Below are positions 27,238-33,249 of a stretch of DNA of 64,000 nt, in pieces (position 1 is the stretch's first letter; the number at the start of each line of letters is the position of its first letter). The stretch spans positions 1,848,718 to 1,912,717 of the forward strand of contig NZ_BMER01000001.1 of assembly GCF_014636865.1 (NCBI RefSeq), given 5' to 3'. This stretch comes from Parapedobacter pyrenivorans (GTDB taxonomy: Bacteria > Bacteroidota > Bacteroidia > Sphingobacteriales > Sphingobacteriaceae). Both the position numbers and the translations under genes were made by a program. A model generated the notes under the pieces. It searched no databases, was not told where the DNA came from, and worked only from the letters and a program-made list of their open reading frames with translations.

Positions 27238-30200
27238 TCACTCCACCTTCACTCGTATCCCCTCGCTATGACTACTGAATTCAGGTGCATACATGCTTTG
27301 AATGGTGCTAATGCCGTTGGAGAATTCACCCGCTTGTGATACGAATACCGGGTATTCAAATACGTAGGTGCCTTTGCGTAGGTAATCGAAGAAAAAGTTG
27401 GTCGCTACGTCGCGTGTACTTTCGTAGTAACCCAGCCCGCCTTGGTAACGGTAGCCACTCAGCACATTCGTTGGCTCGAAACAGGCGGCACGCATGTCTT
27501 TGAGGTGCACGTATTCCATGTCGCGGTCTACACGGAGCTCGATACGTACCGTTACCTTGTCGCCGACCTTTAACGGATTGCCGGGTGTGATTTCTTCTAG
27601 CGCCGGGCCGCGGTCTGTATTGCGTTCGATGTAGAGCTGCTTGCGCAAGCTGAGTGGTGTTTCTGCAGCGGTAATCTTATCGAGTTCTTCAAAATACTGC
27701 CAGTATACGGCACCCCAGGCCACCCCTTCGTTCGTGGCTTTGTCTACCTGCACGGAGATATTTCCCATATCAGGCGTTACGGTGTCACCGTTGTAGCGTT
27801 TCTTGAAGTAGCCGGTTCCAGCTTCGGTCTGCTCCGTAGTGGACTGAATGGTTTCCTGTCCTACGTTGATGGTTACCGTTGGCTCGTTAATCAGCCAATC
27901 GCTTCCTTGCAACAACAGGGCGTATATGGCATCGGCTGTAGCCTTGGTGGTCGTCCAGTATTGAGTTTGTTTCTGTTTGAGCAGCCATACTTTTAGGTCA
28001 TCCACCGCTTTGGTATCCATGGCTACCTCGGCAAAAGCCTCAACGAGCAGGGCCTGTGCTTCGATGGGTGCTTCGTACCACCAATAGCCACGGGGCATCG
28101 TTTTCCAGTACATACCCATTTCCTCGTTTTGGATAGCGGTCTCGCGCAACGACGCCATGATTTCGTTGGCAGTCTTTACATCACCGCCACGGCTGAGCGC
28201 CAAGGCGATCTGGCCTTGGAGATACGGATTGAATTTGGGCCAGTAGCTGGCTGCTTGCGATACATAGTAGGAATAGGCCGTTTTGCTTTCTTTGGCTACA
28301 GGGCTATCCAAGAAACTGCGCAAGTAAAGGTATTGGATATGCGTATGGCCGAGCTGCTGATCTTTCAAGCTGGCTTTGCCTTTCAGTAATCCATCGTAGT
28401 CGATTTTAAGCTGCCTATCGAGATAGTTTACTGCACGATTTAATATATTGTTTGCTGTTTCACTATTTGCGGCGTCTACGCCGAGGTGTTTCAAGCGAGC
28501 GATGCCGGTAACAATGTATTGCGTGATGTAGCGGTTGCTCGTCATGCCCCTGAACCAGGGGAAACTGCCATCCGATACTTGCATTTCGGCCAATTTGGAT
28601 AGATTCTGTTGCAGGCCCTGTGCCAGCTTATGGCTCTCAAAAAGGCGTGCGATGCGGTGTTTTTGTTCGCGTTCGTCTTTAGCTTCCATCACCCAGGGAG
28701 TTTCTTCCAAGAGGGCCGACTTGAGTTCCTGGTTTTTCTCGAGGTTGGAAAGCAGGGCGGTGGTGTCGCTTGTTTTCCATCGGTCGAAGATGGCTTTCAC
28801 ACGGGGCGACTGCCCTACGATGTGGGCGGCCAGCGCATTGGAATAAAACCGGTTGAAAACCTGCTCGGCACACTCATAGGGATACTCCATCAGGTAAGGC
28901 AGCGCTTGCACGGCATACCACGCCGGGTTGCCGGTAAATTCTACGGTGAGTGCGTGGTTTATGCGGCTTCCGCTTGTCGTACTGGCCAGCTTCTCCAGTG
29001 CGAATGTCTTGGTTTCATTACCTCGAACGGGTAAGGGTAGGGTTTCCGTTACCAGCATACGGTTGGTAATGACCGGCAAGGTCGTCTCTTCACCATCGGT
29101 AAAATTGCCTGCTTTAGCCGAGATGCGTACTACCACTGGGTCGAAATGCCCATCGGGGACGGATACAAGCCAGCTGACATCCGTACTTTGGTTGTCCGCA
29201 ACCAAGAAATCTTGATCTGCCAAGCCGTTTCCGAAATTAGCAAGCGGTTGCAGGGTAGTCGCATCCAGCAAATCGATATGCGCTACGCCCTGTAACTCCC
29301 GTACGCTAATGTTGCTTATTTTCGCACTGATACGGATATCGTCGCCTTGGCGGAAGAACCGAGGGAGATTGGGTACCACCATCAGGTCTTTCTGAGTCTT
29401 TACTGCGCCTTGGAGGTAGCCAGTTTTCCAATCTGTTGTGTGGGCAAAGGCCATGAGCTTCCATTCGGTAAGTGCTTCCGGCATGGTAAATTTGACCGTA
29501 ACGTTGCCCTCAGCATCCGTTTGGAGTTGCGGCAAGAAGAAAGCGGTTTCTTGCAGATTGGTGCGTACAGGCGGGGGAGACGTGGTTTCTTCCGCTGCAT
29601 TTTCAGGTTCGGATACAGCGCCTGTTAGGCTTTGCTTTTCCTGTGTTCCATAGCCAACTACCACCACCTCTTGCACTGCGTCAGCCGCTTCCTCGCTAGG
29701 TGCAGCGGCTCGTGCAACGTTTTTTCTGCCGCGTATTTGGATGTTTGAGCCCGCATAATGTATTCGCTGTTGCAGTGTGAAATAATTTACCAATTCATCA
29801 TATCGTTTTTCATACTCGGTGGGCTCGGCGCTGTTGATTGTGTTTAGCCAAATGTTGCCAGCAATCGTTCCAAAGGTTTGGTCGGTTGTCCAATACAGCC
29901 CCAGCCAACGGGTCGGCGATAATCGGTTCCAATTCCAATGATGAGGTTTCAATGCATCCAGCGAACCATCATACAATCCCGCCAGCAACTCAGCCGTTAT
30001 AGCGTCCTTTTTATTGCCTTTGATGGTGAGCCGCCATTCCTCGGCAGCCCCCGGCTGTAATTTATCGCGGTGTGTCGCCCATTCTAGTTGGAGATCACGG
30101 TTCGACCAAGGTACATCCACCTGCTGGTTGCCTTGATATACCCGATTGTTATGTACATATAGCCATCCAAAACCAATTCCACCGCGGTCATCTTCACCGA

Positions 30201-33200
30201 TGGGCCGGTTAATCCGACGCTGTTCGGAAAAGGCGGTAAATTCGGTTTTGATGTCGGTGTTTGTTTCGAGCACATACGTACTATCAAATCCTGTTTTTAT
30301 AGTCAAGTTCAATACACCTCCAGGTTCCAGTGAGGTGCTGTCTGCCAATATCAGTAGCGGCTGCTGCGGTTTTTCTTCCGCCGCAGGTTTGGTAGCGTAG
30401 GTGTACACCTTTTCGGTGATTTCATTGCCATGGGAATCTGCCGTTTTTAACGTGATGAGGTGCCAACCCCCTGTTTTCCAGAGCGAGGCTGGAAGCTCCA
30501 CAGACTGTTGTTTTCCGGTATTGACATTGGTCGACCAACTTGCCTCAGCCGCAGGCCAGCTCAAGTAATTGGCTTCCTCGGCGTATTCGTCATCGGGGAA
30601 GAACTGCCTGAACTCTGCTTCGCTCATTGTATAGCGATCCGGTTTTTCCCACATTCGCATGCGGTATAGCTTGCCCGGGAATTTAAGTGGTGCGACGGAT
30701 ACGGCGACATCCGCCGGGATCGGTATCCCGTTTAGATTCTGTGTTGTGATGGCCAATCGGTTTTCCAAGGTGGCGTTAAGTTGTTGCGCAGCAGTGGCCG
30801 TTAGTTGCAACGAGCGATAGCCCGCTTGCACCTGTTGGTTGCCACTTTGCGTTTCACCGTTGATATCCGTCACATCTGCATATACCGTATAGCTGAATAC
30901 CGGCAAGGTTTGCGGGTCGATATGCTTATCGGGAAGGGTTGTGAATATCACTTCAAAGGTACCATCGGACTGTGTCTGCACGGTACCGCTGGTGATTTCC
31001 AGTTGTGGAGATTGCGGTTGCCCCCAGCGGTAGAATGCCCAGAAATAGGGAAAGCGCGCTTGGCGTACCACGCGGTATTTCACGACGGCACCATCGATGT
31101 TGTTGCCTGCATAAGCTAAGGCGCGGCCTTTTACTTTGATTTCTTCGTTGAGCGCGATGCTGGCTTTCAATGTGTCAAAAACGACCTGGAATTTCGGCCG
31201 CTTATACTCTTCCACCGAAAAATATACATTGCCATTTTTTGTGCCGATGTGCATTTGTCCGGTGAGTCCGCTCTCCGGCGCAGTAAATTTGCCGGAGAAT
31301 GAGCCATAAGCATTGGTAGTTAGCTGCATCGAAGTTACTTTTTGGCCGTTGGCATCAAATAAGGTTACTTCCGACTGGTGGTCCGCCAGCACACGGTTGG
31401 TTTTTCCGTCAGCGGCATTTTCAACGACAATTCCTTTGAAATGCACCGTCTGGCCGGGGCGATAAAGTGCACGGTCGGTAAACAGAAAAGTATGCTCGGT
31501 TGATTTTTTCGAGTCGGTGTCTTCGCTTTGATATGACCCGAAATAGCCATCGGTCCGTAGCGTGTCGCCATGTGATGATAGCACGATACGGCGGATGTTG
31601 TGCTGGCGCTTGTCGATACGGAGAATTGCTTTGCCGTCTTCATCTGTCCTTGTATTGCCGACAGCGTCATATCGATAGGTATCAAACGTGTCGTCCCAAC
31701 GTTCATCCAGGAAGGTTACCTGTGCGCCGCGTATGGGCATGCCCGATTTGCGGTGCAGTGCGAACAACATGCGCTGGTTTTCAAAATTGTTTGTGACAAG
31801 ACTCAATGAAGATACCTGAATGGGTACTACCGAAAGGATCGTGTTTCTCGATGAGAAATCGGCGGTTGCCGACGCGACCAGTAAATAGCGTCCGGTGGGC
31901 AGCGGATCGATTTTTATTTCTGTGCGGTGTTCGTATAGATCGTCTGCACCAGGCAGCGACGCTTCCCATGATGAAAGCGGCTTGCTGTTTATTAATTTTT
32001 TTTGCGTGGTGCTATCTAATTCGCGCTGGGGATTGGACAGCGCATTTGGCCATGGATAGATACGGAAATATGCATTGTCCAGGTTTTTATAGGTCACCAA
32101 CGCTTTATTGTTTTCATCAGGTAGCAAGACGGATTCGGTCTGCATGCCGAGTGATTTACTCAACAAGGAGTAACGCAGCTGTTCTGCATTGCGGGCACCC
32201 TCCGATTTCGGAAAGCGGGCAATGAGTGCGTCAAGTTGCTTAAGCAGGTTGCGCAAGTCTAATGAGTCCTTGCCTATGGCCTGATTATAGTCAAATTGTA
32301 ATAGCACGTAGGTTACTTGTGCCGTTGCAGGATTATCGGGATAGCCTGTGGCAAGTGCTTGCAGCGCGACACGATAAAGGCTGTCCTTATCGGGGTGCAC
32401 AGCATATTGGTACACAAACTGCAAACGCTGTAAATCGGCATCAATGAGTGCATCGGGCTGATCATCACCCAGGTGGAAGGCCAACAATTGCTGGTAGGCA
32501 TGCAGTGCACGGAAGTGCAGCGCTTCTGGCGTGGCCGGGTTTACTTTCACATCGGCGAGGCGCGCTGCCGGCTCGAACCACAGTGTGCCGTCGATTTGGA
32601 ATTGGTACGCCGGTTTGATCACATCTTTCTCGTCGTTCTGGAAAAACGTGATTGCCCTAAATGCCAGAAAGTCATATAGTGTGGGGCGCAGGTGACGTGT
32701 GTTTTTCCCTTCAAGAAGCAGGGGCGCATAACGTTCCACCGCGATGGCCTTGAGCGGTTCGCCGTCAAGGATGGATGCTTGGTATAGGTCACTGGCCTTG
32801 GCGATTAACGTGCCGGCATCCCAAGTGGCTACATCTGCTGGCGGTTCGCCAGTGATGGGGGTGCGGTTAAGGATCATCCAGCGGTTACGCTGATAGTATT
32901 GCCAATACAACTCAGCGTTGATGCTCTGCCAGATCGCCTTTTCGGCACCGTCGGTTACCGAGATCATCGAATCTGCCCGCTGGATGTTCCCTATCGCAGC
33001 ATTTTCCTGGACGGTCTCGTCTGTACCCATCAAGAACAGTTGCGCTTTGATGGTATTGGGGCCATCGTCTTTCCGCTGTGCTTCCGCTAGTATCTTGTTG
33101 GCTATCTTCGAGGCCGTTTGGGGTAGTCCCTTTTCTATGAGTGAATCGATCTGTTTCCATTCTTTCCTGAATGGGTCATCGTGATGTTGTTGTGCGATGG

Positions 33201-33249
33201 TCATCGTGATGGAAAAGACTAATAATATGGATAAGGTGCTGCGAATCAT
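27238..33249 (-). CDS. Alpha-2-macroglobulin family protein with SusC/RagA-like signature in the bait position
   Basis: A 2003-residue exported protein of the bacterial alpha-2-macroglobulin (A2M) family, proposed to trap proteases. A signal peptide ends near residue 18 with no lipobox. About 20-570 is an A2M-typical N-terminal part with a helical segment. An MG2-type domain includes LFTDRALYRPGQTVHFKG near 590. The A2M core domain starts near 1250 (FFLPQLQTDAEGNVTVKF). The thioester motif CAEQ is at residues 1460-1463, so covalent trapping looks possible. At 1195-1212 the peptide VVVVGYGTQEKQSLTGAV, the signature of SusC/RagA TonB-dependent transporters, sits in an Ala/Glu/Pro-rich stretch just before the core domain. 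No pbpC is adjacent. An inverted repeat overlaps the promoter region. Confidence 0.9.
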   Translation of the reverse strand: MIRSTLSILLVFSITMTIAQQHHDDPFRKEWKQIDSLIEKGLPQTASKIANKILAEAQRKDDGPNTIKAQLFLMGTDETVQENAAIGNIQRADSMISVTDGAEKAIWQSINAELYWQYYQRNRWMILNRTPITGEPPADVATWDAGTLIAKASDLYQASILDGEPLKAIAVERYAPLLLEGKNTRHLRPTLYDFLAFRAITFFQNDEKDVIKPAYQFQIDGTLWFEPAARLADVKVNPATPEALHFRALHAYQQLLAFHLGDDQPDALIDADLQRLQFVYQYAVHPDKDSLYRVALQALATGYPDNPATAQVTYVLLQFDYNQAIGKDSLDLRNLLKQLDALIARFPKSEGARNAEQLRYSLLSKSLGMQTESVLLPDENNKALVTYKNLDNAYFRIYPWPNALSNPQRELDSTTQKKLINSKPLSSWEASLPGADDLYEHRTEIKIDPLPTGRYLLVASATADFSSRNTILSVVPIQVSSLSLVTNNFENQRMLFALHRKSGMPIRGAQVTFLDERWDDTFDTYRYDAVGNTRTDEDGKAILRIDKRQHNIRRIVLSSHGDTLRTDGYFGSYQSEDTDSKKSTEHTFLFTDRALYRPGQTVHFKGIVVENAADGKTNRVLADHQSEVTLFDANGQKVTSMQLTTNAYGSFSGKFTAPESGLTGQMHIGTKNGNVYFSVEEYKRPKFQVVFDTLKASIALNEEIKVKGRALAYAGNNIDGAVVKYRVVRQARFPYFWAFYRWGQPQSPQLEITSGTVQTQSDGTFEVIFTTLPDKHIDPQTLPVFSYTVYADVTDINGETQSGNQQVQAGYRSLQLTATAAQQLNATLENRLAITTQNLNGIPIPADVAVSVAPLKFPGKLYRMRMWEKPDRYTMSEAEFRQFFPDDEYAEEANYLSWPAAEASWSTNVNTGKQQSVELPASLWKTGGWHLITLKTADSHGNEITEKVYTYATKPAAEEKPQQPLLILADSTSLEPGGVLNLTIKTGFDSTYVLETNTDIKTEFTAFSEQRRINRPIGEDDRGGIGFGWLYVHNNRVYQGNQQVDVPWSNRDLQLEWATHRDKLQPGAAEEWRLTIKGNKKDAITAELLAGLYDGSLDALKPHHWNWNRLSPTRWLGLYWTTDQTFGTIAGNIWLNTINSAEPTEYEKRYDELVNYFTLQQRIHYAGSNIQIRGRKNVARAAAPSEEAADAVQEVVVVGYGTQEKQSLTGAVSEPENAAEETTSPPPVRTNLQETAFFLPQLQTDAEGNVTVKFTMPEALTEWKLMAFAHTTDWKTGYLQGAVKTQKDLMVVPNLPRFFRQGDDIRISAKISNISVRELQGVAHIDLLDATTLQPLANFGNGLADQDFLVADNQSTDVSWLVSVPDGHFDPVVVRISAKAGNFTDGEETTLPVITNRMLVTETLPLPVRGNETKTFALEKLASTTSGSRINHALTVEFTGNPAWYAVQALPYLMEYPYECAEQVFNRFYSNALAAHIVGQSPRVKAIFDRWKTSDTTALLSNLEKNQELKSALLEETPWVMEAKDEREQKHRIARLFESHKLAQGLQQNLSKLAEMQVSDGSFPWFRGMTSNRYITQYIVTGIARLKHLGVDAANSETANNILNRAVNYLDRQLKIDYDGLLKGKASLKDQQLGHTHIQYLYLRSFLDSPVAKESKTAYSYYVSQAASYWPKFNPYLQGQIALALSRGGDVKTANEIMASLRETAIQNEEMGMYWKTMPRGYWWYEAPIEAQALLVEAFAEVAMDTKAVDDLKVWLLKQKQTQYWTTTKATADAIYALLLQGSDWLINEPTVTINVGQETIQSTTEQTEAGTGYFKKRYNGDTVTPDMGNISVQVDKATNEGVAWGAVYWQYFEELDKITAAETPLSLRKQLYIERNTDRGPALEEITPGNPLKVGDKVTVRIELRVDRDMEYVHLKDMRAACFEPTNVLSGYRYQGGLGYYESTRDVATNFFFDYLRKGTYVFEYPVFVSQAGEFSNGISTIQSMYAPEFSSHSEGIRVKVE

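Follow-up and report, generated by a model that had tools for sequence, protein, structure and literature searches.

Pieces of the TonB-dependent transporter N-terminus in the bait region of Bacteroidota alpha-2-macroglobulins

Alpha-2-macroglobulins (A2Ms) of two subfamilies in the phylum Bacteroidota have a bait region that includes sequence from the N-terminal, periplasmic end of TonB-dependent transporters (NTE/CarboxypepD, TonB box and plug). The case under study lies in a stretch of 64,000 nucleotides from Parapedobacter pyrenivorans, here called the window, whose A2M holds a short transporter-like peptide in its bait. This peptide is probably what wear has left of a larger module, composed of NTE, TonB box and plug, that is intact in relatives.

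By its domains, thioester and fold, the window protein belongs to the A2Ms (Table 1). The MG2, A2M and bMG10 domains each score above the Pfam cut-off, and the thioester motif is intact in the sequence, as the initial annotation had stated. An AlphaFold model of residues 812-2003 (37 sequences) reached a mean pLDDT of 72.6 and a pTM of 0.48, a value at which the arrangement of domains is unreliable. Foldseek on this model returned Salmonella and E. coli A2Ms as the first matches (SaA2M, 4u48, E = 1.1e-38, with a low whole-chain TM-score of 0.22). The N-terminus reads as a cleavable signal without a lipobox, both by a rule-based script and by eye. The neighbours of the gene are housekeeping genes (rpoC, ftsK, feoB, helicases and others, in the nine ORFs scanned), a parE-like ORF was recognised by eye downstream, and none of these nine neighbouring ORFs is a pbpC or another PBP gene. 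A bMG10 search found two A2Ms in the genome, which also holds 150 plug matches over 166 candidates.

Table 1. Features of the A2M gene in the window (positions are those of the window)
Feature	Residues	Position	Strand	Evidence
Thioester-type A2M gene	2003 aa	27238..33249	-	ORF; Pfam MG2, A2M, bMG10; Foldseek
Signal peptide (..TIA/QQ), without lipobox	1-19	33193..33249	-	Sequence reading; rule-based script
MG2 domain	587-671	31237..31491	-	PF01835, E = 9.6e-19
Bait region, predicted disordered	~1127-1237	29539..29871	-	AlphaFold pLDDT <50; low conservation in the genus
IQIRG, resembles the IRG motif conserved in TonB-receptor plugs; possible plug remnant before the box	1170-1174	29728..29742	-	Motif counts
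TonB box QEVVVVGYG	1193-1201	29647..29673	-	Own-genome SusC signature model, 37.4 bits; corresponds to Bt1763 DEVVVTG
Remainder of SusC signature, TQEKQSLTGAV	1202-1212	29614..29646	-	TIGR04056 match to bait segment
A2M core domain	1235-1320	29290..29547	-	PF00207, E = 2.9e-20
Thioester motif CAEQ	1460-1463	28861..28872	-	Sequence
bMG10 domain	1866-1990	27280..27654	-	PF17973, E = 1.6e-34

The bait region of the window A2M carries QEVVVVGYGTQEKQSLTGAV. The peptide VVVVGYGTQEKQSLTGAV (residues 1195-1212, positions 29614-29667), separated from the core domain by 22 residues, had been described in the initial annotation as a SusC/RagA signature peptide at the bait position. This placing was borne out by low conservation in the genus, a pLDDT below 50 and the location ahead of the PF00207 core, and a peptide buried in a fold away from the bait loop is not what AlphaFold predicts, the stretch being disordered in the model. 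The curated SusC model TIGR04056 matched residues 189-216 of the 230-residue bait segment (E = 1.5e-5; 23.6 bits, with a whole-protein cut-off of 368), and no SusC model was listed against the whole 2003-residue protein. A signature model made from SusC regions of the window's own genome, using 18 of the 20 retrieved, scored the peptide 37.4 bits. Pfam found neither an NTE (PF13715) nor a Plug (PF07715) nor any barrel family in the whole protein, and the bait domain PF07703 did not match its bait segment.

According to PMC7782687, the TonB box of the SusC protein Bt1763 is 82-DEVVVTG-88, follows the NTE (PF13715) and is disordered in the substrate-bound structure; its deletion or mutation causes a growth defect like that of a non-functional transporter. 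By comparison with Bt1763 as described there, the window peptide corresponds in sequence to a TonB box plus the beginning of the plug. The pattern 'VV.GYG' was present in 18 of 106 A2M baits (taken as the last 110 residues before the core), in 0 of 1464 other 110-residue segments of the same proteins and at a mean of 0.03 in shuffled baits. This enrichment and the TIGR04056 match rule out a chance peptide, and an assembly or frame artefact is ruled out because the frame stays open, with no internal stop, in many genomes. For a generic TonB-box pattern no enrichment was seen (3 of 106 baits, with a shuffled mean of 0.76). What had been recognised as a likeness to SusC/RagA thus stands as one of ancestry, not of chance, with the correction that the peptide is a TonB box and here a probable remnant.

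Within the genus, for which nine genomes were compared, no other long stretch of the A2M is as poorly conserved as the bait. Five of the six least conserved 30-residue windows fall in it (0.22-0.28 vs 0.65 for the whole protein), the sixth lying near residue 400. Mean pairwise identity was 0.45 over the eight box residues and 0.18-0.23 in the flanking bait. The SusC-derived signature model matched four of the nine congeners; by eye, a box of the form [ATV][VIT][VIT].GYG is recognisable in seven, so that its presence in close orthologues holds for most of them and fails for L010 and L011, which have lost it. Bait dN/dS was 0.35 (L006/L007) and 0.32 (L004/L005) and was not computable for a third pair, with 0.03-0.04 in the core. 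The window bait is therefore a partly worn module whose box is under at most weak constraint, and since the box is lost in two of nine genomes and the bait dN/dS is 0.32-0.35 in the two computed pairs, the peptide may be a relic in this genus. In the window's genus as well as in L085, L106 and L022, an IRG plug motif precedes a TonB-box-like stretch by eye, which is the reverse of the SusC order; the pieces seem to have been rearranged.

To survey relatives, A2M ORFs were taken from a search of 60 genomes (the window's own included) and from 80 named loci (the best 80 of 558). The genome search gave a match at E < 1e-80 in 29 of the 60, and a tally of 38 also counts signature matches to SusC genes. 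Left out were L001-L003 (not A2M), L030 and L032 (fragments) and L136 (missed by the core model), and, from the distinct baits, one copy each of the duplicates L024 = L041 and L019 = L056; L033, which is the L195 gene of the second subfamily, was counted nonetheless. At least one module element was found in the 340 residues before the core in 34 of 108 ORFs (NTE 25, box 22, plug 10) or 33 of 106 distinct baits, a share that is no population frequency given that the named loci are the best 80 of 558. The search of Bacteroidota A2Ms proposed in the initial annotation thus turned up transporter pieces in these 33 baits and none, by SusC-derived models, in the other 73. All three elements co-occur only in L033, L096 and L097 among the 108 ORFs. 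Outside the 340 residues there was no NTE match, no box match and two plug matches (L048 and L026). With curated models (106 segments of at most 230 residues, E <= 0.01), PF13715 matched 24 baits, PF13620 23, PF07703 14, PF07715 10, TIGR04056 33 (best E = 2.3e-72) and TIGR04057 10, and none of the 13 Pfam families matched in these segments was a barrel family.

Shorter traces reach beyond the models. The IRG motif was counted in 40 of 106 baits, where shuffling gives a mean of 1.4, and in 71 of 1464 other segments. Among the 73 model-negative baits, five hold a SusC-type box (shuffled mean 0.035) and 15 an IRG motif (shuffled mean 0.7), and some baits have plug or IRG pieces without a box. The sister A2Ms L048 (residues 883-936) and L026 (residues 9-65 of a fragment) hold a half-plug between earlier domains and a TonB box in the bait, L048 also an NTE; parts of the transporter N-terminus thus occur at two sites within one protein.

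The second A2M subfamily shares at most 30% identity with the window's core and was found in 19 of 247 genomes drawn evenly from the class, at 21 loci (L202 is the L194 gene and L222 the L193 gene). The first five of its genes (L191-L195) have an NTE in five cases, a plug in four and a box in three. SusC-derived models match 12 of the 21, and 14 are reached by counting a second plug type, with motifs such as IRGAR..ATVYYIDG, which we take to be 'Oar-type'; seven are without a module. A third kind of A2M, presumably 'YfaS-like', carried the module in none of seven cases, the paralogue in the window's genome included. In six of the seven cases the genome has a subfamily-1 A2M as well; two of these subfamily-1 A2Ms, L010 and L011, have no detectable module. 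The paralogue, L136, has an N-terminal hydrophobic stretch that looks like an anchor by eye. In the A2M tree, L020, from a genome of the window's family, groups with Pedobacter L034-L039.

One source of the pieces is indicated by the L205/L231 bait, which over 188 residues shares 75% identity (72% and 76% in other alignments) with a plug-bearing ORF of 1350 residues from its own genome. This ORF has CarboxypepD and Plug domains and, in the region matching the L205 bait, is 68% identical to its counterpart in a congener; the A2M baits of the two genomes are 47% identical to each other. Because bait and ORF are more alike (75%) than the two ORFs (68%) or the two baits (47%), that gene either donated or corrected the L205 bait. 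Only 18 of 64 fourfold sites agree between the two, which is near saturation, and the protein likeness has therefore been kept by selection and does not reflect recency alone. L229, with Pfam CarboxypepD and Plug and no barrel, is a presumed transporter. The L206 bait is 57% identical over the whole module to one SusC of its own genome, and the A2Ms of two other searched genomes were not among its matches at E <= 1e-25.

Other baits resemble SusC with less preference for their own genome. L097 is 51% identical to two own-genome SusCs vs 42% to the best A2M bait, and SusCs of other genomes score equally well, the best E belonging to one of G064 (47%), so that its likeness appears to be to SusC, not to the SusC of its own genome. 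For the L074 bait (Tenacibaculum), the 63% identity with a SusC of its contig is confined to residues 8-114, and two A2M baits score higher with 43-44% along nearly the whole length; it appears close to SusC, yet not clearly to that of its own genome. On this contig (C3 of G062), the A2M gene is some 19 and 24 kb away from the two SusC genes of the genome that most resemble the L074 bait NTE (63% and 56%). When the L035 bait was used as a query, four of five other Pedobacter A2M baits outranked every SusC among the matches listed and L036 (36%) did not; most Pedobacter baits are inherited together.

Trees allow several histories. On the subfamily-1 tree, the trait requires six changes when remnants are counted (83 rows). 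If only model matches are counted, it requires 15 (107 rows, against a shuffled mean of 28.3), of which starred branches force 11 or more. Resolution is poor in the short NTE and plug trees, which have eight and three changes with only one forced by starred branches. A single origin of the NTE pieces gave AU p = 0.077 (22 rows), and of those of Flavobacteria plus Pedobacter p = 0.247, neither rejected at 0.05. One ancient insertion inherited by all is, while not formally rejected, hard to square with L205 and L206. Capture probably took place on more than one occasion, and in at least one case the source was a gene of the bait's own genome. The likeness of L205 to an ORF of its own genome speaks for repeated capture, and the two plug types and two subfamilies add to it.

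Intact modules are probably constrained. Of eight pairs, five gave a dN/dS of 0.09-0.20, related Tenacibaculum pairs making up three of these five, and the remaining three were not computable. The core of these pairs gave 0.04-0.06, the module value being 2 to 4 times that of the core, and no dN/dS of module-less bait pairs was computable for comparison. Third-position divergence forms a mosaic along the L074 and L105 A2M genes (Tenacibaculum), with low blocks in the module and around residues 420-660, which may reflect recombination between species. The low silent divergence of the Tenacibaculum module was ruled out as special, other blocks of the gene being alike. In the AlphaFold model of L097 (31 sequences; pLDDT 71.2), a folded NTE (block means 65-83) is succeeded by a disordered stretch that contains the TonB box (model residues 279-343; 25-35) and then by a half-plug of modest confidence (60-69), in an arrangement that is unreliable at a pTM of 0.49. 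A fold comparison of this model gave A2M/complement folds among the 50 matches listed.

From the anatomy, which is read directly, we infer as the best, still tentative, mechanism that the transporter-derived bait acts as a substrate mimic. A2Ms are triggered by bait cleavage (PMC4498604 and PMC5764988), and a substrate sequence placed in a blank bait of human A2M makes it cleavable by, and a trap for, a chosen protease (PMC8267569). Proteases that cut the TonB-box linker would accordingly be trapped by a bait that copies it. In the ~150 transporters of such a cell, this linker is a flexible stretch on the periplasmic side; were a protease to reach the periplasm and attack it, the copy in the A2M bait would be cut too, the cut would trigger the thioester, and the protease would be trapped. 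Repeated capture would keep the bait like its model, and in the window's genus the module would have worn down to a short box. The fuller proposal, that the bait is a replica of the TonB box renewed from the cell's own transporter genes, a decoy that tracks its model and gains specificity by copying the protected substrate, is in our view doubtful. Counting against substrate mimicry are the folded NTE and half-plug of intact modules, which are more than a mere cleavage loop needs, the module-less baits (73 of 106, and seven of 21 in the second subfamily) and the module dN/dS of 2 to 4 times the core, as well as the possible relic state of the box in the window's genus and the AU test, which does not formally reject a single origin of the NTE pieces; we also know of no periplasmic protease that attacks transporter N-termini.

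The initial annotation had offered either a decoy or a docking strand. The bait placing, the predicted disorder and the SusC ancestry of the peptide are supported. Of the two putative roles, the decoy is slightly the better fit, given that the copies are located in the bait and that transporter genes were the source of at least some of them. Docking, in which the bait box binds TonB, is the main rival to substrate mimicry and in itself rather unlikely. TonB boxes act by strand pairing and tolerate sequence change (PMC11658791), which would suit such a role, as would the distribution of signals: by rule, a cleavable 'AQ' signal is present in 33 of 36 proteins with module or remnant vs nine of 47 module-less ones, and the module-less paralogue in the window's genome is anchor-like by eye. 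The other 38 of the 47 comprise three with a lipobox by rule and 35 unclassified, many of them anchor-like by eye. However, these classes are rule-based, signal type and module follow the same clades (Fisher p = 1.5e-11, clade-confounded), and a tree-aware test with four pairs on starred branches (six on all) was uninformative. Baits with plug or IRG pieces and no box also speak against docking, and a partner on the bait could block cleavage.

Alternatively, the bait might tolerate almost any insert, the ~150 transporter genes being the richest source, and pieces would enter, decay and be replaced with no role as mimics. Such neutral capture we consider unlikely. Low bait conservation and graded decay in the genus agree with it, as do the 150 plug matches among 166 candidates, the mosaic divergence along Tenacibaculum A2M genes and a Gly-Ser repeat bait that works in human A2M (PMC8267569); the absence of a clear own-genome source for L097 and L074, together with module dN/dS above core, takes weight from substrate mimicry and lends it to neutral capture. 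Against it, the inserts come from the transporter N-terminus, with no barrel family in 106 segments, the computable intact modules have dN/dS of 0.09-0.20, the 75% identity of L205 persists at near-saturated silent sites, and third-kind A2Ms have no module in seven cases. Neutral capture accounts for the decay, not for the constraint on intact modules.

Least probable, and by our estimate quite improbable, is a generic shuffling of periplasmic domains in which NTE and half-plug are mobile envelope domains with contacts unrelated to TonB or baiting. A Plug domain in an M56/BlaR1-like ORF of the window's genome and the half-plug elsewhere in L048 and L026 would fit, but the placing is nearly always at the bait, and several proteins keep only a box or IRG peptide and no domain. 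The ORF in question (L190:864-2417, + strand, within C1:2681500-2685500) encodes a 517-residue M56/BlaR1-like peptidase with, by eye, two half-plug copies.

A bait of transporter sequence names a candidate for what bacterial A2Ms guard. On the decoy reading, these baits would be the equivalent in nature of engineered substrate baits; on the docking reading, TonB clients would extend beyond transporters. Automated annotation might call some such A2Ms TonB receptors, as SusC and Plug models match the baits. A description of a transporter-derived bait, a variant within the known A2M family, was not found in the open-access literature searched, and domain databases may list the architecture without comment.

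The window A2M shares the MG2, A2M and bMG10 domains, the CxEQ thioester and a bait, predicted to be disordered, before the core with bacterial Type I A2Ms (E. coli ECAM and Salmonella SaA2M). It differs from them in its transporter-derived bait sequence and, as read by rule and by eye, in an N-terminus with a cleavable signal and no lipobox, ECAM being membrane-anchored. A pbpC gene, which adjoins the A2M gene in a number of bacteria, was not among the nine neighbours scanned. With SusC/RagA transporters (TIGR04056; Bt1763) it has the TonB box and signature in common, and its relatives also the NTE and plug, but the window protein has no barrel and no NTE or plug domain, only pieces of motif size. 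The M56/BlaR1-like protein L190 likewise bears a plug piece outside a transporter, but belongs to a membrane peptidase family and not to the A2Ms. Engineered human A2M with a substrate sequence in a blank bait (PMC8267569) embodies the same proposed principle, that bait sequence sets which protease is trapped; that protein is designed and human, whereas the Bacteroidota bait is natural.
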